64,000 nt of DNA from Mesorhizobium sp. (GTDB lineage: Bacteria > Pseudomonadota > Alphaproteobacteria > Rhizobiales > Rhizobiaceae), in the NCBI GenBank assembly GCA_004020645.1, contig SAQL01000023.1, positions 1-64,000 of the forward strand, in the 5' to 3' direction. Each line of letters starts with the position of its first letter. Position 1 is the first letter of the stretch. The translations under genes and the position numbers were made by a program. The notes beneath the pieces are model-generated. The model did not search any database. It was not told where the DNA came from and worked only from the letters and a program-made list of their open reading frames with translations. This document shows, piece by piece, positions 11,659-63,339 of the stretch.

Positions 11659-11754
11659 ATGAACGGCCAAGAGAACATCCGGAGCGCCTGGGCCGCCCTC
11701 AAACTGGTTCGCATGGCTATTGAACAGACCTGCCCCGCCGGGCGTGCTGCCTAG
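11659..11754 (+). CDS. Possible small ORF (31 aa)
   Basis: ATG with GAGGGAGC upstream, stop TAG at 11752. The peptide (NIRSAWAALKLVRMAIEQTC) is predicted to be one amphipathic helix with a single Cys. Small size makes it uncertain; the good ribosome-binding site is the main support. Confidence 0.3.
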   Translation: MNGQENIRSAWAALKLVRMAIEQTCPAGRAA

Positions 11755-11856
11755 CGAGGAACCTGGGATTGTTATTATATTAGCCTAGGCGCATATTGTC
11801 GCCGATAACGGTTTCGATTGAGCCTAACATACCTCCTTTGGTCGGGAGGGACCAAC

Positions 11857-12006
11857 GTGGGGAAGTTCCTGGCAGGCCTGTTTCTCGCGATGCTGGTGGC
11901 GTCGGCAGGACGATGCTGGTCCGATGACAGGATTCCTTACAAGCCGATCGCCGAAGAAGCAGTGAGAACGGCAAGTGCCCGGCTGTATTCCGACATTCTG
12001 AAGTAA
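11857..12006 (+). CDS. Small secreted protein (49 aa)
   Basis: I chose the GTG at 11857 because GGGAGG lies seven bases upstream; the open frame continues upstream to 11818. The product begins with a typical signal peptide (GKFLAGLFLAMLVASAG) and has a short mature part with DDRIPYKPIAEEAVRTASA. It should be periplasmic. No family recognised. Confidence 0.5.
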   Translation: MGKFLAGLFLAMLVASAGRCWSDDRIPYKPIAEEAVRTASARLYSDILK

Positions 12007-12012
12007 CAATGC

Positions 12013-12300
12013 ATGCACGGGCGGCGGTATCCACGGAGCCAAATTAAGAGCGGCTTCAAAAGGCACTTCGAGGAATTGAAACTGACGATTGTCGAGGAAG
12101 GGTACACCATCGTTCCTAATGTGAGGGAGAACAACTCACTCCGGACTGTTTCTGAGATGGCATTTGACGCCAAACGGCGACTGGATCTCCCGCCCCAATT
12201 CGGCTGTTTTGGAGCATATTGGCTCGATGACAAATCCGGATTGGTAACCCGCGATAAGGCAGCCGGCGCGGCGGTCACGACCAGCAGCCTTGCAATTTGA
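12013..12300 (+). CDS. Hypothetical protein (95 aa), weak
   Basis: Starts seven bases after the small secreted gene. The first half (FKRHFEELKLTIVEEGYTIV) looks like real protein; the last third does not. It may be a short cytosolic protein or the 5' part of a broken gene. No family recognised and no good ribosome-binding site seen. Confidence 0.25.
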   Translation: MHGRRYPRSQIKSGFKRHFEELKLTIVEEGYTIVPNVRENNSLRTVSEMAFDAKRRLDLPPQFGCFGAYWLDDKSGLVTRDKAAGAAVTTSSLAI

Positions 12301-12441
12301 GCAGACAAAGAGCCCGACCAGGTCGTCATGCATCGAGCCGTGGTCGCGGCCGAGCCTGTCAATCAATGCCCGAAACGCGCCTCCCCACAACCGTTGGACC
12401 ACAACAATCGGCACGGCCGCTATCGGCGTGAATTAAGCGGG

Positions 12442-12552
12442 CTAATGGTTTCCAGCAAAGGACGCGCGGCGTGGTATACCATCACTATCCGGGGAAACAT
12501 TGGATACGCAGCCGCTCAGCGCCATCAAAATCAACACCAAAAATAGTCGCAT
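12442..12552 (-). CDS. Small lipoprotein (36 aa)
   Basis: ATG at 12552 with an excellent GGAGG five bases upstream. The N-terminus MRLFLVLILMALSGCVSNVS is a lipoprotein signal with lipobox LSGC, so Cys15 should be lipidated. The mature part is only about 22 residues. Such tiny lipoproteins are commonly missed in annotation. Entericidin-like or phage lysis lipoproteins are loose comparisons only; no function is assigned. Confidence 0.55.
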   Translation of the reverse strand: MRLFLVLILMALSGCVSNVSPDSDGIPRRASFAGNH

Positions 12553-12801
12553 CTTTCCCTCCGAATTGGGGGCACTTAGCACGGATGTCATGCTGGTGCC
12601 TGGCCGCCGACCGAAAGCGAGGCCCGTTCAGAACTTATGGAGACCGACATTCCCCGGATGAACCCGGTTTCTGGCGACACAGTAGCCGTCATGGCCGCCC
12701 CAGGCAATGTTGAGCGCGGTGCGGGAGGGTATTCGCCTTGCTGTGCTGCCAAATCCGCCTGAGCCAAGCCTTCCCAGGCCGTTGATGGCCGATTCTCGTC
12801 C

Positions 12802-51436: not shown

Positions 51437-51535
51437 GCGCAACCGCTTTTTTGTTGATGAGATTTTTTGGATGACGGTATGCAAGACGGTGAGCGGACTG
51501 CGATATCGCGTTTCGACCAGAATGGAGCGAAAGCT

Positions 51536-52228
51536 ATGTCTTCCGGATTGGCCGAATTAGACGTGTCTCTCAACCGGCGCAGTTCGGCTAGTGAACAGAT
51601 TTACACCGCCCTGCGTGAGGCAATCGTGCGCGCCAGGCTCTTGCCTGGCGAGTCGATCAGTGAAAACGCCGTGTGTCGCCAGTTCAATGTGTCTCGCACG
51701 CCCGTGAGGGCGGCAATTCAAAGGCTAGCCGAAGACGGACTAGTGAATGTCTTTCCGCAACTCGGCAGCTTTGTCTCGCAAATTGACATCGTCAGCATCC
51801 AGGATAGTCATTTTATCCGCCGCTCCCTGGAAACTTGCCTTCTTCGCGAAGTTGCGCCGCGTTGGACGCGCGCGATGAGCGCCGAAATGCGTTCACTGGT
51901 CGCAGCACAAGAGCGCAGTATCTCTGAGGGCGATATTGACGGCTTTCACGAGAATGACGAGAATTTTCACCAACTGTTTGCGACATTTGCGCAGCGACCG
52001 GGCGTGTGGACGACCATCCACGCTGCCAAAGCCAAGCTGACTCGCTTCATTCGTTTCTCCGGCAATGCCGAACGATTTGCGGCTGTGCTGCAAGAACATC
52101 TGGCAATTCTGGATGCGCTAGACGCCAAGGACAGCCTTGGTGCGGAAGCCGCATTGGTTGCCCATCTCGACAAAATCTTTGTCCTTTTCGACGCGCATGC
52201 GGCGGAGGCACGCCGTGCCGCCGTCTGA
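51536..52228 (+). CDS. GntR/FCD-family regulator of the hexuronate locus
   Basis: 230 residues from ATG 51536 (MSSGLAELDVSLNRRSSASE) with GGAG upstream; TTG 51467 would add 23 residues. Residues 18-85 are the winged helix (FNVSRTPVRAAIQRLAEDGL); residues 95-220 are the FCD domain (DENFHQLFATFAQRPGVW, EHLAILDALDAKD). Probably represses the divergent transporter operon and its own operon until a uronate intermediate is present. Confidence 0.85.
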   Translation: MSSGLAELDVSLNRRSSASEQIYTALREAIVRARLLPGESISENAVCRQFNVSRTPVRAAIQRLAEDGLVNVFPQLGSFVSQIDIVSIQDSHFIRRSLETCLLREVAPRWTRAMSAEMRSLVAAQERSISEGDIDGFHENDENFHQLFATFAQRPGVWTTIHAAKAKLTRFIRFSGNAERFAAVLQEHLAILDALDAKDSLGAEAALVAHLDKIFVLFDAHAAEARRAAV

Positions 52229-52235
52229 CCAAGCA

Positions 52236-52994
52236 ATGGAGAATTCTCGCTTGCAATCGCTAGAAGGAAGAACCGCTGTCGTAACCGGAGGCGCAGGCGC
52301 CATCGGCTCTGCGATTGCACTGGGACTGGCGCGCGCAGGTGTGCACGTGGCAGTTCTGGATCTGCTCCCCGAGGCCGCACAGGCGCTGGCTTCAAGGATA
52401 GGGCATGGTGCAATTGCCGTCGGCGTTGATCTGGCAGCCGAGAGTTCCACGCGCGCGGCGGCGGAGAAGGTTCTTCGGCACTTTGCTTCGGTCGACATTT
52501 TAGTCAACAATGCCGGAATTCTGTCGAACCACAAAATGGCTGATACCTCGGTCGAGGAATGGCGAAGGGTCAACACAGTCAACGTCGAAGCCGCATTCTT
52601 TCTCGCCCAGATATTTCTTCCAGGGATGCGCTCAACGCGGTGGGGTCGGGTGATCAATATCTCCTCATATGCGGCCAAAAGCGGAGGTTTGACTGCAGGG
52701 ACGGCGTATTCAGTTTCGAAGAGCGCGATGATAGGGCTGACGTTTTCAATCGCCCGCGAGACCGCTGGCCAGGGCGTAACCTCTAATGCAATTGCGCCCG
52801 CCTACGTAATGTCGCCGATGGTTTCCGAACAGCTCAACGACCAACAGCGCGCAGACCAGCTTGCACAAATCCCGGTCGGGCGATTTTGTGAACCTCAAGA
52901 AGTCGCCCACACCGTTTCATTCCTCGCTTCACCTCTAGCAGGCTTCATCACGGGCGAGGTTATCGACATGAACGGTGGTCTCCATTTCGATTGA
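52236..52994 (+). CDS. Short-chain dehydrogenase/reductase
   Basis: 252 residues from ATG 52236, seven bases after the regulator. Classical SDR: TGGAGAIG cofactor site, NNAG, catalytic Ser (NISSYAAKSGG) and YSVSK. It ends FITGEVIDMNGGLHFD, as is normal. In a uronate cluster it may oxidise or reduce an uronate or aldonate, but the substrate is not fixed by sequence. Confidence 0.9.
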   Translation: MENSRLQSLEGRTAVVTGGAGAIGSAIALGLARAGVHVAVLDLLPEAAQALASRIGHGAIAVGVDLAAESSTRAAAEKVLRHFASVDILVNNAGILSNHKMADTSVEEWRRVNTVNVEAAFFLAQIFLPGMRSTRWGRVINISSYAAKSGGLTAGTAYSVSKSAMIGLTFSIARETAGQGVTSNAIAPAYVMSPMVSEQLNDQQRADQLAQIPVGRFCEPQEVAHTVSFLASPLAGFITGEVIDMNGGLHFD

Positions 52995-54483
52995 GCTGAA
53001 TACATTGGTAAATCGTCTTTCCAACGCCAATTTGTCGCTCGCGTCGGCCGGTGTCCAAATTCCGCGGTACGACCGGAGCAGGGTGACGCCCGGAATCGTG
53101 CATCTTGGTATCGGCAACTTCCATCGGGCCCATCAAGCAATCTACGCGGACGATTGCCTCGCGGCGGGACAACTCGATTGGGGTATCATTGGAGCCTCCC
53201 TTCGGAGTTCGGAGACCCGGGACGCTCTGGCTCCCCAAGATAATTTGTACACAATTGTCGGTCATCAAGATGAACAGACTAGTCTGCGGATAGTCGGCTC
53301 TATCGGCCATATACTTGTCGCACCGGAGGGTCCCGCGCAACTGCTGAAGGCCCTGGTTGACCCTCGGATCAGGATCGTGACTTTGACAGTCACCGAGAAA
53401 GGCTACACGACGGATCTGGCGTCGCGAACTTTGCTGAAGGATCATCCGGATGTACGCCACGACTTGGAACACGTTGCTGCGCCTCGAAGCGTCGTAGGTT
53501 TCCTTGCCGAGGCGATAGCTCGAAGGCGAGAGCGCAGCGTCCGCCCGTTTACCGTGCTTTCGTGTGACAACCTTCCGGCGAATGGGGACACAGTCCGGAA
53601 AATCTTGCTGGAGTTCACCGCCGGACGTGACACTGATTTGGAACATTACATTCGCGATGAAGTGGCATTCCCTTCGTCGATGGTGGACAGAATCGTGCCC
53701 GCGACCACAGATGAGGTACGGGCAGAGGTCAGCAGAAAATCGGGCCTTCGCGACGCTTGGCCCGTGATGACCGAGCCATACACCCAATGGGTAATCGAAG
53801 AACAATTCCCGGCCGGGCGTCCCGACTGGGCACGGAGCGGCGCTCTATTCGTCGGAAATGTTGCCCCATACGAGCACATGAAGCTCCGTTTATTGAACGG
53901 CGCTCATTCCGCGATTGCTGCTATTGGCCGTGTGGCAGGCCTTGAGACCGTCGACAAAGCAATTGGCCACCCAGCGATCCGGACATTTATCGAAGGGTAT
54001 TGGACAGAGGCAGGCGCGACGGTATCCAGAGAGCTGAACCCGGGAGCTTATACGCGAAAGCTCTTGGAACGGTTCGCCAACCCCGCCCTGGGTCATCGGA
54101 CTGAGCAGATCGCCACGGACGCCTCGCAGAAGGTCCCGCAGCGCATACTAACGCCGTTGCGCGAACTGCGCGCGAAGGGTCTGCCCAATGCCCACTTGGT
54201 ATTTGCAGTTGCCGCTTGGATCAGGTCCTGCGCTGGTTACGATGACAGCGGGAAAGCCTTCAGCTTGAACGACCCCACCCTCACCACATGGCGTGGAATG
54301 CCGGATCAGGCCCTGTGCTCCGCGGAGGAGACGACGTCTGCCTTCATGAGCAATAGTTCTGTTTTTGGAGACGAGCTGCCGAGGGACATCCCTTTCGTTC
54401 ATTCGGTTGCCAGCGCGTTGCAGATCTTCCGTGAGAACGGAGCGGTGGCCGCAATTGCGGCCCTTTCCCAGAATCGCATTTAA
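52975..54483 (+). CDS. uxuB: Mannitol dehydrogenase-family oxidoreductase (predicted fructuronate reductase)
   Basis: 502 residues from GTG 52975, overlapping the SDR end by 20 bases. Polyol-specific long-chain dehydrogenase family: GIVHLGIGNFHRAHQAIYAD binds NAD, and the K-x3-L-NG-x-H signature reads MKLRLLNGAHSAI. UxuB reduces D-fructuronate to D-mannonate. The next gene, UxuA, uses D-mannonate, which supports this choice over mannitol or arabitol dehydrogenase. Confidence 0.8.
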   Translation: MVSISIELNTLVNRLSNANLSLASAGVQIPRYDRSRVTPGIVHLGIGNFHRAHQAIYADDCLAAGQLDWGIIGASLRSSETRDALAPQDNLYTIVGHQDEQTSLRIVGSIGHILVAPEGPAQLLKALVDPRIRIVTLTVTEKGYTTDLASRTLLKDHPDVRHDLEHVAAPRSVVGFLAEAIARRRERSVRPFTVLSCDNLPANGDTVRKILLEFTAGRDTDLEHYIRDEVAFPSSMVDRIVPATTDEVRAEVSRKSGLRDAWPVMTEPYTQWVIEEQFPAGRPDWARSGALFVGNVAPYEHMKLRLLNGAHSAIAAIGRVAGLETVDKAIGHPAIRTFIEGYWTEAGATVSRELNPGAYTRKLLERFANPALGHRTEQIATDASQKVPQRILTPLRELRAKGLPNAHLVFAVAAWIRSCAGYDDSGKAFSLNDPTLTTWRGMPDQALCSAEETTSAFMSNSSVFGDELPRDIPFVHSVASALQIFRENGAVAAIAALSQNRI

Positions 54484-54500
54484 GACAAGGAATTCGAAAC

Positions 54501-55685
54501 GTGGAACAAACGTGGCGCTGGTTCGGGCCCCAAGACCCCATCTCGCTTGACCATGTCAGGCAAACTGGCGCGACAGGCGTTGTAACTGCACTGCACCATA
54601 TCGACGACAACACTGTTTGGTCGGCAGACGAAATAGACCGCCGAAAAACTGTGATTGAACGTGCCGGCTTGAGCTGGAGCGTTGTTGAATCCATCCCGAT
54701 CCCCAGCATCATTAAGCAAGGAGGTGCGGCAGCGCAAAAGGCGATTGCCGTGTGGAAGGATTCGCTCGCGAATGTCGGGCGGGCCGGGATTCCGGTAGTC
54801 TGCTACAATTTCATGCCGGTGGTCGACTGGACACGGACGGATCTTTTGTTTCGCGTTCCCACCACCGGATACGCCCTGCGCTTCGACATGATCGATTTCA
54901 TTGGCTATGACGCATTCGTTCTGAGGAGAGCCAATGCCGAAGGCGATTATCCTGCCGACGCGGTGCGAAGGGCTCACAGCCGCATTGCTTCAAAAACCGA
55001 GGCAGAGATTGCCTTGCTCGAAAGAAACATTATTGCCGGATTGCCTGGAGGCGCGGCAGTCCAGACACGCAGTTCAATTGCCTCCGAAATCGCAAATTTC
55101 AAGGACATCGACGCCGATGCGATGCGTCATAACATGGTGCAGTTCGTGCAAGAAATGTCTGCAATCGCAGAAGACGTGGGTGTCCGCTTGGCCATTCACC
55201 CCGACGATCCTCCGTTTTCTCTCTTCGGGCTTCCACGTGTCGTTTCGACCGCCGAGGATGTGCGGCATTTAGTTGGCGCCGTTGAAAGTCCCGCCAATGG
55301 CATCACTTTATGTGCCGGCTCGTACGGATCCAGGTCGGACAACGACGTATTGGCGATCGCCTCAGAATTCAGTTCAAAAATCAATTTTGCTCATCTGCGC
55401 AACGTGACCATAGAGCCTGACGGCTCTTTTTTTGAGGATCAGCATTTGGAGGGCGGCACTGACATGGTTGCGCTCATCGGGATTCTGTTGGCGGAGGAAC
55501 GCTCGGCCCGTGCTGATACTCGAGCCCGCCAGATCCCAATTCGGTCGGACCACGGGCATTTACTCGGTTCGGACGGCGAGCGACCGACAAACCCCGGCTA
55601 TTCCTATATCGGGCGGTTGAAGGGGCTTGCCGAACTGCGGGGTATCATTCGCACGCTTGAATCGCAGTCCGTAGGTACGCAGTGA
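54501..55685 (+). CDS. uxuA: Mannonate dehydratase
   Basis: 394 residues. MEQTWRWFGPQDPISLDHVR is the canonical UxuA start; HPDDPPFSLFGLPRVVST and RSDHGHLLG carry metal and active-site residues. It dehydrates D-mannonate to 2-keto-3-deoxygluconate. Length matches the family. The next gene, kdgK, which should phosphorylate the product, is broken. Confidence 0.95.
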   Translation: MEQTWRWFGPQDPISLDHVRQTGATGVVTALHHIDDNTVWSADEIDRRKTVIERAGLSWSVVESIPIPSIIKQGGAAAQKAIAVWKDSLANVGRAGIPVVCYNFMPVVDWTRTDLLFRVPTTGYALRFDMIDFIGYDAFVLRRANAEGDYPADAVRRAHSRIASKTEAEIALLERNIIAGLPGGAAVQTRSSIASEIANFKDIDADAMRHNMVQFVQEMSAIAEDVGVRLAIHPDDPPFSLFGLPRVVSTAEDVRHLVGAVESPANGITLCAGSYGSRSDNDVLAIASEFSSKINFAHLRNVTIEPDGSFFEDQHLEGGTDMVALIGILLAEERSARADTRARQIPIRSDHGHLLGSDGERPTNPGYSYIGRLKGLAELRGIIRTLESQSVGTQ

Positions 55686-56151: not shown

Positions 56152-57045
56152 ATGTCGCAAATTCCGATCCGCTCGATCTGGGTGTTTCACGCAGCTGCCC
56201 GCGCTGGTAGCATTTCGCGGGCCGCCGAAGAGCTGAACGTCACACCGTCCGCCGTCACTCAGCAGGTCCAAGCGCTGGAGACGCAACTAGGTGTCACGCT
56301 GCTTACCAAGTTCGGTCGTGGCATCCTGCTGACGGAGGCCGGCGAACGGTTTTTCGCCTCGATTAACGATGGCGCGGAGCAGATTGCAGAGGCAACCAAT
56401 GCGATCCGTGGCTATCGTTCGATCACCGCACTCACCGTGCGCGCGACGCCAACTCTGTCGAACAAATGGCTGCTGCCGCGCCTCGGCGCGTTCCTGACTG
56501 CAAATCCCGATCTCGAGGTGCGGCTGGATGGCACCAATGAACCGACCGATTTCAACCGCGAAGCCGTGGATCTGGAAATCAGACACGGCGACGGCAAGTG
56601 GCCCGGCCTGTTCGTTGAGGGACTTATCGAAGAGAGCTTTGTTCCGGTTTGCGCGCCATCAATTGCCAAGCCCGCCAGTCTGGCGGCACAAGACGTGCTG
56701 CAGTTTCGCCTGATCCACTCGGTCAAGTCTCAGGCACAATGGACTCGATGGCTGGCGCTTGCCGGCGTCGAATCCAATGAGAGGTGGCGACGCGTTCTGT
56801 TCGACCGCAGCCATATGGCGATTGATGCGGCTGCCGGCGGGCTTGGCATAGCTCTGGAGAGCACTTTGATGATGCAGCGCGAGCTATCCGAAGGCAGCCT
56901 GATCTGCCCGGTTCGCGACGCACCCGAAATCCATATCGTGACGCAGTGGATCGCGTGCCCGCGCGATCATCTTCGCCACAAGAAGGTGCGGGCGTTTCTC
57001 GACTGGCTGCGTAGCGAGGCGCGATCCGCCGCGCCCAAATTATGA
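56152..57045 (+). CDS. LysR-family regulator (GcvA-like)
   Basis: 297 residues: winged helix at 1-65 (SIRSIWVFHAAARAGSISRA begins nearby, then AAEELNVTPSAVTQQVQALE), followed by a type 2 periplasmic-binding-like effector domain (TVRATPTLSNKWLLPRLGAF). It converges tail to tail with gluconokinase, the last gene of the TRAP operon, and may regulate that operon, although LysR genes are more often divergent from their targets. Confidence 0.85.
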   Translation: MSQIPIRSIWVFHAAARAGSISRAAEELNVTPSAVTQQVQALETQLGVTLLTKFGRGILLTEAGERFFASINDGAEQIAEATNAIRGYRSITALTVRATPTLSNKWLLPRLGAFLTANPDLEVRLDGTNEPTDFNREAVDLEIRHGDGKWPGLFVEGLIEESFVPVCAPSIAKPASLAAQDVLQFRLIHSVKSQAQWTRWLALAGVESNERWRRVLFDRSHMAIDAAAGGLGIALESTLMMQRELSEGSLICPVRDAPEIHIVTQWIACPRDHLRHKKVRAFLDWLRSEARSAAPKL

Positions 57046-57543
57046 TCAGGCCAATGCGGCCGCAGCCCTCTCCACGATGCTCTGCGGGCTCCACGCAATC
57101 GACAGCGCCAAAAAGCGCTCGTCGGGCATCGGGAGTTCCAGCGTCGCGAGTTGGCTGGATAGCAATGAGGGTCCGGCGAAATGGTTCTTGCGACTGCCAA
57201 GGCGCTGCAGGATCAGTTCCTCCGATCCATCGAGGAAAGCGAAGCCGACCTGGCCGAGACGCTCCCGCAGAAAATCGCGATAGCTGCGCTTGAGGGCCGA
57301 ACATGCGACGACCGCCGGACGCGAGGGCAGCGCCAGCGCCGCTTCCGCCACCGCAGCCAGCCAGGGCCAACGCATTTCGTCCGTCAACCCATCACCGCGT
57401 CGCATGCGCTCCACATTCGCCGCGCTATGATAGGCATCAGCCTCGATCCAATCGACGCCGAGACGGTCTGCTAGGCCTCGGGCGATCTCCGTCTTGCCGG
57501 CGCCGGAGACGCCCATGACGACGATGAAATCGGGTCGCGCCAT
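57046..57543 (-). CDS. gntK: Gluconokinase
   Basis: 165 residues from ATG 57543. P-loop GVSGAGKTEIARGLA, then WIEADAYHSAANVERMRRGD (usually FHP, here YHS), then VVACSALKRSYRDFLRE and FLDGSEELILQRLGSRKNHF. It phosphorylates D-gluconate to 6-phosphogluconate, or a similar aldonate in this operon. Last gene of a seven-gene leftward operon. Confidence 0.85.
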   Translation of the reverse strand: MARPDFIVVMGVSGAGKTEIARGLADRLGVDWIEADAYHSAANVERMRRGDGLTDEMRWPWLAAVAEAALALPSRPAVVACSALKRSYRDFLRERLGQVGFAFLDGSEELILQRLGSRKNHFAGPSLLSSQLATLELPMPDERFLALSIAWSPQSIVERAAAALA

Positions 57544-57554
57544 CGTCGATCGAC

Positions 57555-58835
57555 TCAATATAGGCCGAGCAGGCGGATCGGCCCGAGGGTGAGAACCGGG
57601 AACAGCACCAGCGCAAGGATCGCCATAACCAGGATCGACATCGGTGCGAGCGATCCCTTGATCACATCCTCGATCGACATCCTGGCTACCTGCGCCGCCG
57701 CGAACAGGCAGACGCCGACCGGTGGCGTCACCAGCCCCAGCGTCAGCGTAATGACTGTCACGATGAGAAAATGCATCGGATCGACGCCCAATGACACCGC
57801 TGGCGGCAGCAGCACCGGGATCAGGATGAACATGGCAGCGATCGCGTCCATGAACATGCCGACCACGATCAGGAACAGAAAGACAAGGATGAGCACCATC
57901 GTCGGGCCTGTACTGATCGCGCCGAGTAGGGTCGCCACCTGTTGCGGTAGGCCATCATAAGTGAAGACCCAGGCCGCAAGCTTGGCGGTCGCAGCGATGA
58001 ACAATATCGTTCCAGACGTGCGCGCTGTTTCAACGATGATGCCCGGAAGTTCCGCTAGCGAAATTGTCCTGTAGAGGATCACCGCCAGGAACAGCGTATA
58101 GAGCGCGGCAATGGCGGCCGCCTCGGTGGGCGTGAAGTAGCCGTCTATGATACCGATCAGCAAGATGATGGGCGTCAGCATCGGCAGGATCGCGTTCACG
58201 CCCGTGATCGCGATCTTGCGAAAGTCCATTGGCGACGGCGGATTGTAGCCGTGCCTGACCGCATGGACATGGTTGAACACCATGAAGGCGAGAGCAATGA
58301 ACAGGCCGGGTACGAGGCCTGCGACCAGCAGTGTGCCGATCGAGACACTCGCGATCGAACCGGCAATGACGATCAGGATCGACGGCGGAATAATCGACGA
58401 CAGCGTGGAGGTGCAGAGCGTCATGCCCACCGCATAGCCGCGTGGAAACCCATGCCGCTCCATCGCCCTTATCTCGATCGCCCCGATCGAGGCGATGTCG
58501 GCGACGGAAGACCCGGACACTCCTCCGAAGATGACGGAGGATACGACGTTCACATGGCCCATGCCGCCAGGCATCCAGCCGACGCAGGCCTCGGCGAAAT
58601 CGAAAAGCTTCTCGGCCACACGCCCCCGTTCCATCAGGACGCCAACGAAAATGAAGAGCGGCACCGCCACCAGCAGGAAGGAATTTATCGCGGAGAACAT
58701 GCTCTGCGACAGGAGGTCGATCGGTGTGGACGTGAACAGGTAGATCACGGCGACCGACGCAAGGCCCAGCGCCACGGCCAGGGGAACGCCGAAAGCGCTC
58801 ATGAGCAGAAGCAGGAAAAGCAGCGCGATGCTCAT
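57555..58835 (-). CDS. TRAP transporter large permease (DctM)
   Basis: 426 residues from ATG 58835 (MSIALLFLLLLMSAFGVPLA); the frame is open upstream inside the DctQ gene. About twelve membrane helices. DctM signatures: SVADIASIGAIEIRAMERHG, CTSTLSSIIPPSILIVIAGS, and TLGLVTPPVGVCLF. Na+-driven uptake together with DctP and DctQ. Start overlaps the DctQ stop (ATGA). Confidence 0.95.
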   Translation of the reverse strand: MSIALLFLLLLMSAFGVPLAVALGLASVAVIYLFTSTPIDLLSQSMFSAINSFLLVAVPLFIFVGVLMERGRVAEKLFDFAEACVGWMPGGMGHVNVVSSVIFGGVSGSSVADIASIGAIEIRAMERHGFPRGYAVGMTLCTSTLSSIIPPSILIVIAGSIASVSIGTLLVAGLVPGLFIALAFMVFNHVHAVRHGYNPPSPMDFRKIAITGVNAILPMLTPIILLIGIIDGYFTPTEAAAIAALYTLFLAVILYRTISLAELPGIIVETARTSGTILFIAATAKLAAWVFTYDGLPQQVATLLGAISTGPTMVLILVFLFLIVVGMFMDAIAAMFILIPVLLPPAVSLGVDPMHFLIVTVITLTLGLVTPPVGVCLFAAAQVARMSIEDVIKGSLAPMSILVMAILALVLFPVLTLGPIRLLGLY

Positions 58836-59389
58836 GGCTGCTGCTCCGAATCTGGGACTGCGACGTCGGCTTCCACCTTCTGGCCGGGTGAGAGGCCAAG
58901 ATCGGAAAGCTCGATTTGGGGACGGCGCGTTCGCAACGATTCGAAGACGGCCAAGGTGGCGAAAACAGCGGCGATCGGCATGATCGCTCCGATGAGCCAC
59001 ATCGGCATTGCGAGGGTCGCGGACGTTTCGTTCATCATGTACTGCTGCCTGGCCAGCTTCCAGCCGGTCCAGGCGGTCAGGCCAAAGAAGAGCACAGACG
59101 ACGCAACGTAGATATGCACGGATAGCCTGCGCATCAGGTCCGGCATCATGTCGATGAAGACAGTCACGCGCGCCGTTTCGACCGTGCGAAAGCCCGCGGC
59201 TACCCCGAGAAAGATCATCCAGACAAACAGATAACGCGTCGCTTCCTCGGTCCAGGATACGGGTGTTCCGAGCAGTCGGCTTACTACCTGCAGCAACACC
59301 ACGACAATGATGCCGGTCATTGCGATGCCTGCTATGCCGTCCAGCAGGATTCGCAGGATGGCGTCGAAGCGGGTCTGTGCTTTGCCCAT
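58832..59389 (-). CDS. TRAP transporter small permease (DctQ)
   Basis: 185 residues, four membrane helices. The central VSRLLGTPVSWTEEATRYLF and VWMIFLGVAAGFRTVETARV is the DctQ hallmark. It precedes DctM with a four-base overlap and follows DctP by 56 bases. Confidence 0.95.
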   Translation of the reverse strand: MGKAQTRFDAILRILLDGIAGIAMTGIIVVVLLQVVSRLLGTPVSWTEEATRYLFVWMIFLGVAAGFRTVETARVTVFIDMMPDLMRRLSVHIYVASSVLFFGLTAWTGWKLARQQYMMNETSATLAMPMWLIGAIMPIAAVFATLAVFESLRTRRPQIELSDLGLSPGQKVEADVAVPDSEQQP

Positions 59390-59445
59390 GGTCTCCTCCC
59401 ATACGGGCGGCGAGGGATCGCCTCGCCGCCAGGCCTGTTTCAGGC

Positions 59446-60444
59446 TTATTTCTTTCCGACAAAGGCAAGGCTCTTGTCGAAGAAGGTCTGGTCCTTCACC
59501 AGACCGGCAAAGACCGGGAACAGCTGCTTCGAAACCGCTACGAAAGCCGCCTGCTGCTCCGGCGTCAGACGGTTGACCTTCATGCCGTGGCCTTCCAGGT
59601 CCTTGAGGATCGTCTCGGCCTGCGCCGCATCGTTCTCGGCCTTCCAGGCCTCGGCTTCCTCGGCTGCCTCGGTGACCGCCGCCTTCTCGGCCTCGGACAG
59701 GGCGTCGAACTTGGCCGGATTAATGCCGAGCACCCAGCCGTCCGCCATGTGGTTGGTGATCGAGACGAAGCTCTGTACCTCGTAGAACTTGGCAGCGAGC
59801 GGCACGCTGATCGGGTTCTCTTGCCCGTCGACGACCTTCAACTGCAGTGCGTTGTACACTTCGGCGAAAGCCATCGGGGTCGGCGCCGCGCCCATTTTTT
59901 TGAAGAACTCGACCCAAAGCGGGTTGTTTGGGACGCGGAACTTCAGTCCGGCCAGATCCGCCGGCTTCTCGATCGGCAGCTTGGAGTTGGTCATCTGGCG
60001 GAACGGACGGGTCCACAGGCTCAGGCCCTTGATGCCGATGGCGTTCAGATCGGCAATCAGCTCCTGACCATGCTCGCCGGCGAGATAGGCGCGCAGCTGC
60101 TTCTCGTCGTCAAAGAGATAAGGGATCGAAATGGCCGAGAATTTCGGATTGAAGTTGGCGTAGAGCGAGGTGGCCAACACCAGTATGTCCAGCGATCCGC
60201 CAGCAAGCTGCTTGACCGCGCCCGATGGGTCGCCGCCGTAGAGCGTGCCATTCGGGAAAACCTTGATGGTCACTTCGCCGTTGGTCTTGGCGGCCACCAG
60301 TTCAGCAAACTTGTTGGCAGCGACAGTGATTTCCGCGCCATCCGGATCGGGTGTGGACAGGGTCAGGGTCGTGGCGGCCTGCGCGGCGGTTGCGACAAGC
60401 ATTGCCGCGCCGGCAAGCAGGCTGCGGATCGAGAAAGCGTTCAT
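59446..60444 (-). CDS. TRAP solute-binding protein (DctP)
   Basis: 332 residues from ATG 60444, with GGAGG six bases upstream. Signal peptide MNAFSIRSLLAGAAMLVATA, cut after AQA. DctP fold: LKFRVPNNPLWVEFFKKMGA contains the ligand-binding Arg, then PTPMAFAEVYNALQLKVVDG and QENPISVPLAAKFYEVQ. The Arg/Asn pattern is that of carboxylate-binding TRAP receptors. Confidence 0.95.
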   Translation of the reverse strand: MNAFSIRSLLAGAAMLVATAAQAATTLTLSTPDPDGAEITVAANKFAELVAAKTNGEVTIKVFPNGTLYGGDPSGAVKQLAGGSLDILVLATSLYANFNPKFSAISIPYLFDDEKQLRAYLAGEHGQELIADLNAIGIKGLSLWTRPFRQMTNSKLPIEKPADLAGLKFRVPNNPLWVEFFKKMGAAPTPMAFAEVYNALQLKVVDGQENPISVPLAAKFYEVQSFVSITNHMADGWVLGINPAKFDALSEAEKAAVTEAAEEAEAWKAENDAAQAETILKDLEGHGMKVNRLTPEQQAAFVAVSKQLFPVFAGLVKDQTFFDKSLAFVGKK

Positions 60445-60458
60445 GGTATCCTCCACTC

Positions 60459-61364
60459 TCAGTTGTTGGGCGAGCTTGCGCCCGGTTGGTTCATCTTCTT
60501 AAGCGTCAGAAAGACCGCGCTGTGATCGAGATCGCCGCCGCCTTCATCAACAAGGCGGCGAAACAGGCTGTCCACCTGTTCGGCGATCGGCAGTCGCAGC
60601 TCTTGCGCACGCGCCAAGGCCAGCGCGGTGCCTGTATCCTTGACCTGGTATTTTGCAGGACCGCCCGGCACGAAATTGCCTTCGACCATCCTCAGGCCAT
60701 GCTGACGGAACACCGTCGAATCCGCGAAGCCGCCGAGCAGCGCCTCGCGAACCCGGGCCGGATCGGCGCCGCCACTCTCGGCCAGCAAAAGCGCTTCAGC
60801 CACAGCGCAGATGTTCGATGCCACAATCAGCTGATTGGCGAGCTTGGCCAACTGGCCCGAACCGGCCGGCCCGACATGCGTGACGCGGCCCATCGGCGCG
60901 AAGACCGCACGAAGGCCTTCGACCTGCGCCGCCTCGCCGCCCGCCATGATGGCAAGCGTGCCTTCCCGCGCACCCTTCTCGCCGCCTGAGACCGGAGCAT
61001 CGATATAGTTGAGGCCGACGGCGGTCGCCCGTTCCGCCTGCCCCCTGGCCGTTTCGACCGGGATCGAACTCATCACGACAAGCGTTGAGCCTCGTCGCAT
61101 CGCACCGAGAACGCCACCCTCGGAGAGCAACACCTCATCGCAGACAGGGCCTGAGCTCAGCATGCAGATGACGGCATCGGCGTCGATGGCGGCATCAGCG
61201 GCGCTCGCGGCAATCTCGACGCCGTCAGCTGCCAGTGCCGAGGCCTTATCGGGCGTGCGATTCCAGGCCTTCACCCGGAACCCGGCCTCTGCCAGGCGGC
61301 GGGCCATATGCCCGCCCATAATTCCAGTTCCTACAAAGCCGATACTTGTCAGAGCTTTGCCCAT
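60459..61364 (-). CDS. 3-hydroxyisobutyrate dehydrogenase-family NAD(P) oxidoreductase
   Basis: 301 residues from an ATG at 61364 (MGKALTSIGFVGTGIMGGHM). Motifs: GFVGTGIMGGHMARRL cofactor site, DAPVSGGEKGAREGTLAIMA substrate site, and the catalytic Lys in GSGQLAKLANQLIVA. Members act on tartronate semialdehyde, 3-hydroxyisobutyrate or L-threonate/D-erythronate. The sugar-acid context favours one of the last kinds. Fourteen bases before DctP. Confidence 0.85.
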   Translation of the reverse strand: MGKALTSIGFVGTGIMGGHMARRLAEAGFRVKAWNRTPDKASALAADGVEIAASAADAAIDADAVICMLSSGPVCDEVLLSEGGVLGAMRRGSTLVVMSSIPVETARGQAERATAVGLNYIDAPVSGGEKGAREGTLAIMAGGEAAQVEGLRAVFAPMGRVTHVGPAGSGQLAKLANQLIVASNICAVAEALLLAESGGADPARVREALLGGFADSTVFRQHGLRMVEGNFVPGGPAKYQVKDTGTALALARAQELRLPIAEQVDSLFRRLVDEGGGDLDHSAVFLTLKKMNQPGASSPNN

Positions 61365-61391
61365 CCCTGTGCCTCCCAACACTCTGGCGTC

Positions 61392-61712
61392 CTACTCGCT
61401 CACGAGGCCCAGAAAGCGGACGATGGTCTCATCGACGTCTAGCGTCTTCATGGACGCCTGAAAGCGCTTCAAATGCGGCGTGGTAAGATGCGTCTCGAAG
61501 GCGGTGCGATCGTCATACACCTCGTAGAACACGACCGTATCGTCGGTGCCTTCCGGGCGGACGATATCGAACTGGTGACACCCGGCCTCGTCCGCAACCG
61601 AATGGCGCGCGTCGTCCAAAGCAGCGTCGAGGAATGCCACCATCAGCTCGGGCTTCACGCGAAACTCCGGGATCACCACGAAGCGAGGCTTTTGAGTAGT
61701 ACGGTCCATCAC
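61392..61712 (-). CDS. Putative quinol monooxygenase (ABM domain)
   Basis: 106 residues. VIPEFRVKPELMVAFLDAAL, then ARHSVADEAGCHQFDIVRPE, then FYEVYDDRTAFETHLTTPHL is the YgiN/LsrG-like ABM fold. In this operon it may act on a reactive dicarbonyl or as an isomerase, as LsrG does. No metal or cofactor motif. Confidence 0.8.
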   Translation of the reverse strand: MMDRTTQKPRFVVIPEFRVKPELMVAFLDAALDDARHSVADEAGCHQFDIVRPEGTDDTVVFYEVYDDRTAFETHLTTPHLKRFQASMKTLDVDETIVRFLGLVSE

Positions 61713-61729
61713 GCATCCTCCCTCGACGA

Positions 61730-63088
61730 TCAGGCCGCTACGCTGGGGTTTGGACGGAATGTGTCTTCCATCTCACGACGCACCTTCAGGACATCCAGGT
61801 CGGTGACCAATTCGACATCGTCGAAGCTGACGATCTGATCCTTCTTGATCGCGCGCTTGAGCTTGACGTTATGGGCCAGGCCAATCGGCAAAGCTCGGTG
61901 CTTCAGGCTGCGCGTCGCTGGAATGGCGTTGGCCCAGACGGCGAAGCCCCCCTCGCCATCGAGCAGTTCGCCCGACTGCATGTCCTTCTTCGCGGTAGCC
62001 ACAGCGTCGCCGCGAAACTCTTTCGAACAGCCGGTCGCCTCGCCGCGCAACACGGCCGAAAGCACACTGACCGAAGTTTCCAAGCCGATGATGTGGAACG
62101 GACGCCACATGGACGCGTACCATCCCGACGGATCGGTCAGCAGGCCGTACTGATTGAAGCATGCCTTCGAGTACTCGTTGTGGGCCTTGAAGGTGACGAA
62201 CACGCCATAGCGGATATTGTTGACCACCTCGCGGCCATCGGGCTCCTGGCTGGCTGCGATGTCGACAAGGCCGCTGCGATCCATCCGGCCGCCATCGGCT
62301 GCCGGACGGAACACCTTCGCGAGGTCATGCAGCCCGGCAGGCGGGAAGGCAAGACCGTTGTCTGGGCAATCGAGGCCGGTGCCGTTGGCCACCGCCGCCA
62401 TCTCGATCGCAGCCTTGGTACCGTCCGTGAAGGAATTGTACATTTTCGGGTTGAAGTCGCCCTTTGCGACATACTCCTCCGACCACCCGAAGAAACCCCA
62501 GACCGTGTCCGGCGTCGAATAGCGGTAGCGTGGCTCGAAATTCATCCCCTTGCCAGCCGCCGTAACCTCAAAGCCGGTGGCGCGCGCCCAATCCACGAGC
62601 TCACAGATCAGTGCCGGCTGGTCGCCATAGGCCATCGAATAGATCACGCCCTTTGCCGCGGCCCTCTTGGCCAGGATCGGACCGACCATGACGTCGGTCT
62701 CGACATTGACCATGACGATATGCTTGCCGGCGTCGATCGCGGCGAGCGCGTGGCGTGTGCCGGCGATCGGATGGCCGGTCGCCTCAATGACGCATTCGAT
62801 ATCGTCGCAGGCCAGCAGCGCCGCGACATCATCCGTGACGAAGGTCGTGCCATTCTTGACGGCATCAGCGGCGCTCGTAGCGGAATACTTCTCCTTCGGC
62901 CAGCCGACGCGGTCCAGCGACTCGCGCGCCTTTCCGACATTCAGGTCCGCCACCGCGACCATGTGATAGCCGGCAATGCGCTGCGCTTGGGCGAGCACCA
63001 TCGAACCGAACTTGCCGGCGCCGATTAGGCCGACGCGAACGGGCTTGCCCTTGGCGGCGCGGGCAGCGAGGAGAGAAGAGAGGTTCAT
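61730..63088 (-). CDS. NAD(P)-dependent oxidoreductase with a C-terminal SAF-like domain
   Basis: 452 residues from ATG 63088 (MNLSSLLAARAAKGKPVRVG). Residues 20-160 are a Rossmann domain (LIGAGKFGSMVLAQAQRIAG, CVIEATGHPIAGTRHALAAI) like homoserine dehydrogenase. The middle has AYGDQPALICELVDWARATG. The last 80 residues are SAF-like (HRALPIGLAHNVKLKRAIKK, DQIVSFDDVELV). First gene of the TRAP operon. Substrate unknown, probably a C4-C6 sugar acid or its ketone. Confidence 0.8.
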   Translation of the reverse strand: MNLSSLLAARAAKGKPVRVGLIGAGKFGSMVLAQAQRIAGYHMVAVADLNVGKARESLDRVGWPKEKYSATSAADAVKNGTTFVTDDVAALLACDDIECVIEATGHPIAGTRHALAAIDAGKHIVMVNVETDVMVGPILAKRAAAKGVIYSMAYGDQPALICELVDWARATGFEVTAAGKGMNFEPRYRYSTPDTVWGFFGWSEEYVAKGDFNPKMYNSFTDGTKAAIEMAAVANGTGLDCPDNGLAFPPAGLHDLAKVFRPAADGGRMDRSGLVDIAASQEPDGREVVNNIRYGVFVTFKAHNEYSKACFNQYGLLTDPSGWYASMWRPFHIIGLETSVSVLSAVLRGEATGCSKEFRGDAVATAKKDMQSGELLDGEGGFAVWANAIPATRSLKHRALPIGLAHNVKLKRAIKKDQIVSFDDVELVTDLDVLKVRREMEDTFRPNPSVAA

Positions 63089-63339
63089 TGTCTCGGGTTC
63101 CCTGCATGAGGACGATAAGTTTTGTGGGCTGTGTCCAAGTCCCCCGTCGATCCCGCGTGGACCAGCGACGAACCAATGCTTCGCAACCGTCCGGAAGGTG
63201 CTCCCGGACCGCTGAACGTCTGTTGGCGTGAAGGTTCCTCCCTCCGGCCGAGGCCTCGCTGCGCAAGGCACTGCGACGAAACGGACTTTATTCTGCCAGG
63301 TTGTTTAGCTCAATTTAGAAAGATGCACATTTCGTTTAG

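Follow-up and report, generated by a model that had tools for sequence, protein, structure and literature searches.

In its published description (PMC3847144), the DRL family of oxidoreductases comprises DXR-II together with DLO1 and DLO2, both of them uncharacterised; a function is assigned there to the isoprenoid branch only, and the DLO families have none. Here we analyse an operon led by a DRL-family gene in a 64,000-nucleotide stretch of Mesorhizobium sp. DNA (contig SAQL01000023.1, positions 1 to 64,000; hereafter the window), part of contig C122 in a genome of 7.66 Mb. We tentatively propose that this operon serves the catabolism of an imported sugar acid of the aldonate type, under the control of a LysR regulator. 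What can be read directly from the sequence is family membership, the ligand pocket of the solute-binding protein DctP, operon integrity, a conserved upstream element and the residues of cofactor sites. The operon is uncharacterised and follows a familiar pattern; its lead enzyme is unusual, and to our knowledge no catabolic reaction has so far been assigned to the DRL/DLO family.

Other described systems resemble parts of this operon. In the E. coli L-idonate (Idn) pathway the substrate is oxidised, reduced at another carbon and phosphorylated, and the two dehydrogenases and the IdnK/GntK-type kinase of the window operon suggest a similar net logic; however, the window dehydrogenases (DRL and HIBADH) and the transporter are of other families, and neither IdnD nor IdnO was found among the operon's genes. 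The D-apiose and D-apionate pathways were reportedly described by Carter et al. in 2018. They comprise ApnO, OiaK, OiaX and AptAB, as cited in two later papers (PMC6302742, PMC13001218). A few relatives have OiaK-like and OiaX-like genes close to their orthologue of the lead gene, but the window operon has no such gene, and such genes are present elsewhere in its genome. Among the papers listed by a literature search, with most subscription journals outside its coverage, none described an operon of this kind or a function for the DLO families, in keeping with the initial annotation, which could name no matching pathway with certainty.

Seven minus-strand open reading frames (ORFs) run head to tail from 63088 to 57046, by ORF coordinates. 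Pfam and NCBIfam families give the order DRL_cat/SAF oxidoreductase, ABM protein, HIBADH-family dehydrogenase, DctP, DctQ, DctM and GntK/IdnK-type kinase, so that the order and positions first reported are borne out. By their coordinates the DctM and DctQ genes overlap by four bases, and PF03480, PF04290 and PF06808 each score above their cut-offs, as expected for a DctPQM transporter of the tripartite ATP-independent periplasmic (TRAP) type. A convergent LysR gene (56152-57045, plus strand) directly adjoins the 3' end of the kinase gene and is part of the unit; all seven genes of the original description are present, and the unit has eight. Comparison with a sister copy (locus L127) places the likely starts of the dehydrogenase at 61364, of DctP at 60444 or 60456 and of the kinase at 57543. 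The features are:

61730..63088, minus strand: DRL-family oxidoreductase with a C-terminal SAF domain, 452 aa (P0001); PF21135 192.3 bits, SAF 22 bits (cut-off 21)
61392..61712, minus strand: ABM-domain protein, 106 aa, dimeric ferredoxin-like fold; PF03992 69.7 bits, nearest PA0709 and LsrG
60459..61364, minus strand: beta-hydroxyacid dehydrogenase (HIBADH / tartronate semialdehyde reductase family) with a WNRT motif; PF03446 and PF14833
59446..60444, minus strand: TRAP solute-binding protein DctP; PF03480 283 bits, TIGR00787 247 bits, over cut-off
58832..59389, minus strand: TRAP small permease DctQ; PF04290 102 bits
57555..58835, minus strand: TRAP large permease DctM; PF06808 358 bits, TIGR00786 371 bits, over cut-off
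57046..57543, minus strand: GntK/IdnK-type small carbohydrate kinase; TIGR01313 157 bits
56152..57045, plus strand: LysR-type regulator, likely for the operon; PF00126 and PF03466, best NCBIfam match GcvA (NF008352) at 266 bits (cut-off 288)
63305..63319, minus strand: conserved element TCTAAATTGAGCTAA, probable LysR operator; ends 216 bases before the oxidoreductase start

The lead enzyme and its family

The lead enzyme scores far above the PF21135 cut-off of 27 bits, and a sequence search matches it to Brucella DXR-II (3upy/3upl) with an E value of 1.3e-61. Its AlphaFold model (mean predicted local distance difference test score, pLDDT, 93.3) aligns over its full length with 3upy/3upl at template modelling (TM) scores of 0.89-0.93, while the remaining matches among the 50 listed, homoserine dehydrogenases, Gfo/Idh/MocA-type proteins and similar, reach 0.28-0.50. 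The initial annotation had correctly called a SAF-domain oxidoreductase, but the DRL (DXR-II) family went unrecognised. A protein from plasmid pBB1 of Cupriavidus necator N-1 is 49% identical; the strain appears under DLO2 in PMC3847144, where the gene listed may be a different one.

Genome contigs yielded at least 575 relatives, of which we examined the best 80, together with 13 plasmid loci selected from 111 matching records. Of these 93 loci, 51 form group I, the close relatives with an oxidoreductase at least 63% identical (one, L087, is a partial copy; 11 plasmid records reach 72% identity or more, and 8 of them were taken in); the other 42 are more distant.

DXR-II anchors fosmidomycin through Lys191, Lys193 and Thr229 (PMC3847144). 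In the window enzyme the first lysine is kept as K180, whereas M182 and A226 replace K193 and T229, and this Met/Ala change at two of three anchors recurs in all ten group I sequences aligned, the window included. The host genome holds three DRL genes, in the window and on C230 and C208. The latter two share 68% and 55% identity with 3upy, compared with 34% for the window protein, and both keep K191, K193, T229, H250, R320, Y322 and V351, positions at which the window protein reads K, M, A, A, R, F and R. K191, Met 193, Ala 229, R320 and Phe 322 are uniform across the ten aligned; L060 is exceptional in having Ser at 250 and Asn at 351. Since two of the three anchors are changed in 10/10 close orthologues aligned and the two other DRL genes of the genome keep them, the window enzyme is probably not DXR-II. 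It shares the Pfam domain and the full-length fold with DXR-II but lacks K193, T229, H250, Y322 and V351, and its gene is part of a catabolic operon with a TRAP transporter.

Where its second Rossmann strand ends, the window enzyme carries an Asp (D48) that is invariant in 27/27 sequences aligned; the position reads Ala-Arg-Arg in 3upy and Thr-Arg-Arg in the C230 paralogue. We take Asp here to indicate the NAD(H) type and Arg-Arg the NADP(H) type. From this residue we infer a putative oxidative, catabolic role for the window enzyme. Acidic cofactor residues also occur outside the window clade, as Glu in the C208 paralogue and Asp in L102, both of which lie in catabolic-looking surroundings. 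The C208 paralogue (L021 9491-10813; G000:C208, ~124.5-125.8 kb) has enolase-like, FGGY-type kinase, SorC-type regulator and ABC sugar importer genes as neighbours, as judged from their translations, and thus lies in a sugar-catabolic operon, perhaps one for 2-C-methylerythritol or deoxyxylulose. At L102 (2974-7215, a plasmid of Rhizobium sp. B230/85) the DRL gene is followed by genes for thiamine pyrophosphate-dependent E1 alpha/beta and for E2.

A candidate route for an imported sugar acid

The closest solved relatives of the window DctP are 4p47, 7bbr (CxaP), 4pdh and 4p9k, and its alignment with 7bbr spans 259 residues. According to PMC11668362, the ligand-contact positions are D76, R152, R173, an aromatic residue at 196 and N213 (4p47 numbering). 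The window protein has D71, R148, R169, F192 and N209 (numbered on a 331-residue reading; +1 for an ATG at 60444), that is, all five carboxylate-ligand residues of the 4p47 type. It differs from these proteins at R145, which is Leu in 4p47 and Asn in 7bbr. The five contact residues plus R145 are found in 17 of the 26 DctP proteins aligned (the window and 16 relatives); the other nine belong to a different TRAP transporter that accompanies the SAF gene, deviate at one or two of these six positions and have no R145. The pocket thus supports a hydroxy-carboxylate as the likely ligand, and R145 may make aldarates plausible candidates. Together with the gene content, it lends support to the sugar-acid substrate of the initial annotation.

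The model of the ABM protein (pLDDT 93.5) has as its nearest fold neighbours PA0709 (Z 17.1) and LsrG (Z 15.9), but identity is ~25%, and the LsrG model PRK10486 gives 31.4 bits against an equivalog cut-off of 135. The label "LsrG-like" therefore holds for the fold and fails on the curated score. No rhamnose mutarotase is among the 50 ABM fold neighbours shown, which excludes nothing. The HIBADH-family dehydrogenase scores 256.8 bits against TIGR01505 (2-hydroxy-3-oxopropionate reductase; equivalog cut-off 340.75) and is nearest to 4dll in the PDB, with 1yb4 also matching. A WNR follows its second strand, as in all nine core HIBADH proteins displayed, and we read this motif as a sign of the NADP type. 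The kinase lies within the GntK/IdnK subfamily (TIGR01313, cut-off 113.75 bits) but below the GntK equivalog (PRK11545, 117.7 bits against a cut-off of 265).

In our proposal, (I) DctPQM would import the sugar acid by ion symport, (II) the DRL enzyme would use NAD+ to convert it into an oxo-acid, perhaps rearranging the carbon skeleton as its DXR-II cousins do, (III) the ABM protein might shift the carbonyl or epimerise the oxo-acid in the manner of LsrG, (IV) the HIBADH-family enzyme would reduce the product with NADPH, and (V) GntK would phosphorylate the resulting aldonate for the Entner-Doudoroff or pentose phosphate route.

Several observations weigh against this aldonate route. EGDxxH reads EADxxH in six of the eight operon kinases aligned (window, L011, L014, L015, L027, L028) and is kept in L041, L042 and the genome's other GntK, and because of this change D-gluconate may not be the kinase substrate. 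That other GntK, encoded at C196, is itself a second enzyme of the kind in the genome. The kinase is present in 8/51 and the dehydrogenase in 23/51 group I loci, and these two are therefore not essential to the SAF enzyme everywhere. The Asp at the cofactor site of L102, which is 75% identical to 3upy, means that this residue marks cofactor type and not function. Finally, the SAF gene also occurs with ABC importer, isomerase-like and PfkB genes and with split transketolases, contexts that a simple aldonate route leaves unexplained.

Upstream element, conservation and spread

Upstream of the oxidoreductase gene lies a 15-base element, TCTAAATTGAGCTAA, of which this is the only exact copy in the host genome. 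We scanned 450 bases in each of 52 upstream regions (the window, L127 and 50 group I loci) and found its 14-base core exactly in 16, at 132-223 bases from the oxidoreductase start. Four further regions match with two mismatches (that of L029 no better than the best shuffle) and two with three, and the remaining regions have 4-7 mismatches, at chance level; in the control of 40 single-base shuffles per region none had fewer than two mismatches, with means of ~4-6. In a scan of 59 loci allowing up to two mismatches, with the 15-base form confirmed, every exact copy lies 5' of an oxidoreductase gene, and four two-mismatch matches in SAR116 contigs are all inside genes. For the window alone, 17 of 100 shuffles contain a match with at most two mismatches, so an inexact match would be unremarkable; the weight of the element comes from its being exact, well placed and recurrent.

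The element is kept beside TRAP or ABC neighbours alike, and because of this persistence it probably marks the operator of the LysR protein. A scan of 220 upstream bases for T-N11-A gave no match in the window, since the element sits further out, where the 450-base scan found it. A regulon search of the genome returned no second exact site and, at up to three mismatches, 32 sites compared with 40 in the reversed control.

Gene presence was counted by tblastn (relative within 9 kb; at least 50% identity for LysR and HIBADH, 40% for ABM, DctQ and GntK, and 60% for DctP and DctM), a procedure that recovers genes missed by the gene caller, for example the ABM of L026 and the GntK of L012. In group I we find LysR in 32/51 loci, ABM in 30/51 and DctP, DctQ and DctM in 14/51 each. 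All eight genes are present in seven of the 51 (L011, L012, L014, L015, L027, L028 and L042), the TRAP proteins of L042 being 34-45% identical to those of the window. Among the 42 distant loci, the same thresholds detect ABM, HIBADH, DctP, DctQ, DctM and GntK in none and LysR in one, Chelatococcus L009 (53%), where an annotated TRAP set and an ABM-type gene fall below the thresholds. The association of the genes exceeds chance. The kinase linkage recurs with a different gene arrangement in Rubrivivax L041, where the same genes are present and GntK-DctM-DctQ-DctP face away from LysR-SAF-ABM-HIBADH; the ABM there (30% identity) was detected by the gene caller only.

The operon is a sparse and probably mobile trait. 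In a sample of the genus, 9/146 genomes match at E<=1e-100 (a count that includes the host genome and one match of 56%), and in a sample of the order 10/397 match at E<=1e-200 (host genome again included); the candidate route is found in Mesorhizobium, Rhizobium, Agrobacterium, Ensifer/Sinorhizobium and others. The sister copy, in genome G087 of the same genus, has a 97% identical oxidoreductase and the complete cassette between different flanking genes. This copy in other surroundings and the single genomic element support the "self-contained" route first suggested, with the caveat that kinase and dehydrogenase are often absent beside the SAF gene.

Two minor observations concern the copies themselves. 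In L127 the HIBADH gene (11722-12644) is split over two frames. At L133 (9352-10014, G090:C28) we find a second, partial copy of the SAF gene that covers query residues 229-452 and contains one internal TGA.

Contexts of relatives and competing explanations

The SAF gene lies beside genes for a sugar ABC importer, an XylA-like TIM-barrel protein and a PfkB kinase, mostly with RpiR, in Sinorhizobium L014, Limimaricola L006, Methylocapsa L024 and a number of Mesorhizobium loci. An amidohydrolase gene, presumably a lactonase, is near it in five loci of the genus. Nine loci of Rhodobacterales and others (L044, L046, L048, L052, L054-L056, L058, L059) contain split transketolase genes close to the SAF gene, in most cases along with an SDR gene; an AptAB-type apulose route was rejected for these transketolases, which are 34-37% / 30-34% identical to AptA/AptB of E. 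coli SE15. DUF1537-type kinase genes occur in 8 of 98 relative loci, compared with ~0.8 expected from the genome's three strong matches, although these odds are rough owing to post-hoc seeds, unequal locus lengths, ~five lineages and a duplicate pair (L022 = L128). This excess fits oxo-sugar-acid chemistry around the DRL family, which, rather than one pathway, is what the relatives' contexts share.

Two loci bring components of the apionate type close to the SAF gene. Methylobacterium platani L033 has the run LysR-SAF-ABM-OiaX-like-OiaK-like-SDR, and Rhodovulum L052 has PGDH_C-domain (which we take to be ApnO), OiaK-like and OiaX-like genes; the labels in L033 follow from clustering with the L052 proteins, whose own scores of 447 and 494 bits stay below the cut-offs of 700. 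OiaX-like genes are near SAF in 3/98 loci.

In the host genome the apionate-type genes sit elsewhere, on C208 at ~193.8-208.8 kb, with OiaX at 776 bits and an OiaK-like gene at 468 bits (both cut-offs 700), and with a PGDH_C gene that we presume to be of ApnO type. We note that L134 (G000:C208:190000-209999) holds the PGDH_C, OiaX, OiaK-like and ABC sugar importer genes together. The seven genes of the window operon contain no member of the ApnO, OiaK or OiaX families. Apionate, initially listed as a candidate ligand, is disfavoured because the genes of its route lie at this other locus, although the genome may carry redundant routes.

A possible though unlikely alternative is that the DRL enzyme acts as an oxidoisomerase on a sugar acid with a branched chain, such as apionate or hamamelonate/2-carboxyarabinitol, combining oxidation with migration of a carbon group, DXR-II in reverse, before the product is reduced and phosphorylated. 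DXR-II, its homologue in sequence and fold, is a reductoisomerase, the NAD-type residue suits the oxidative direction, and the gene sets of L033 and L052 point the same way. However, K193 and T229 of DXR-II are replaced by Met and Ala, which leaves the rearrangement chemistry unproven, OiaX-like genes are rare near SAF, and for apionate the C208 genes argue against it.

We regard as improbable the more specific version in which an NAD+-dependent oxidoisomerase runs a DXR-II-type rearrangement backwards on a non-apionate branched plant sugar acid such as hamamelonate, which we take to correspond to 2-carboxyarabinitol. The latter is a leaf by-product of 2-carboxyarabinitol 1-phosphate, a nocturnal inhibitor of Rubisco. 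PMC9833046 describes leaf pools of 2-carboxyarabinitol and its formation from hamamelose, and reports that dark inhibition is strongest in legumes. Among the titles listed for hamamelose and carboxyarabinitol, none concerns a bacterial catabolic route. If true, this would be the first catabolic DRL/DLO reaction and a bacterial outlet for 2-carboxyarabinitol.

Distinctly unlikely, in our view, is a small C3-C5 hydroxy-acid as the substrate, with the HIBADH protein as a tartronate-semialdehyde-type reductase and the GntK-like protein as a glycerate- or tetronate-type kinase. The dehydrogenase's best NCBIfam match is 2-hydroxy-3-oxopropionate reductase, its nearest PDB entries are those named above, and DctP aligns with 4pdh and 4p9k; several structures of the 4p47 group contained erythronate or pantoate (PMC11668362). 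Nevertheless, the TIGR01505 score stays under its equivalog cut-off, and the Pfam families of the operon include no carboligase or aldolase. Typical substrates of the GntK family are, moreover, C6 aldonates.

It is improbable, too, that the ABM protein works as a true oxygenase without a cofactor and attacks an enediol or reductone from the dehydrogenase, in an O2-dependent pathway that cleaves the carbon chain. Its fold neighbours do include SnoaB, a cofactor-independent oxygenase (Z 14.2), and YgiN (Z 13.1), but PA0709 and LsrG are nearer, though fold alone shows no function, and a kinase for an intact aldonate would be less needed. An isoprenoid DXR-II role, for which family membership speaks and a DXR-I search of the genome whose sole match was weak and to the window gene itself (21.5 bits, with a model that matches in 9/14 control genomes), is hardly credible and is rejected on residues (K193M, T229A, H250A, Y322F, V351R) and on the better candidates on C230 and C208, as well as disfavoured by the catabolic operon context.

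For the aldonate-type operon that we prefer, a screenable DctP, a private operator-like element and the 97% copy make a catabolic DRL branch directly testable. Naming the DctP ligand would give a TRAP substrate and a sugar-acid route across several rhizobial genera and others. DRL/DLO enzymes are widespread, with a function assigned to the isoprenoid branch alone in PMC3847144.

To the left of the unit, at 51467-55685 on the plus strand, lie GntR-like and SDR-like genes, labelled by reading their translations. With them, in what is a hexuronate operon next to the unit, are the mannonate dehydratase gene uxuA, over its cut-off, and a gene resembling fructuronate reductase (399 bits, cut-off 603). 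We rejected a hexuronate link: uxuA and fructuronate-reductase-like genes are not among the annotated neighbours in the three relatives read, nor beside L127, where translations were read and no systematic search was made. Among the more distant relatives, one 49% identical protein is encoded on a Phaeobacter inhibens plasmid (L010 9402-14375) between dihydroxy-acid-dehydratase and SMP-30 lactonase genes, and this locus also encodes a HIBADH-type oxidoreductase dependent on NAD(P).

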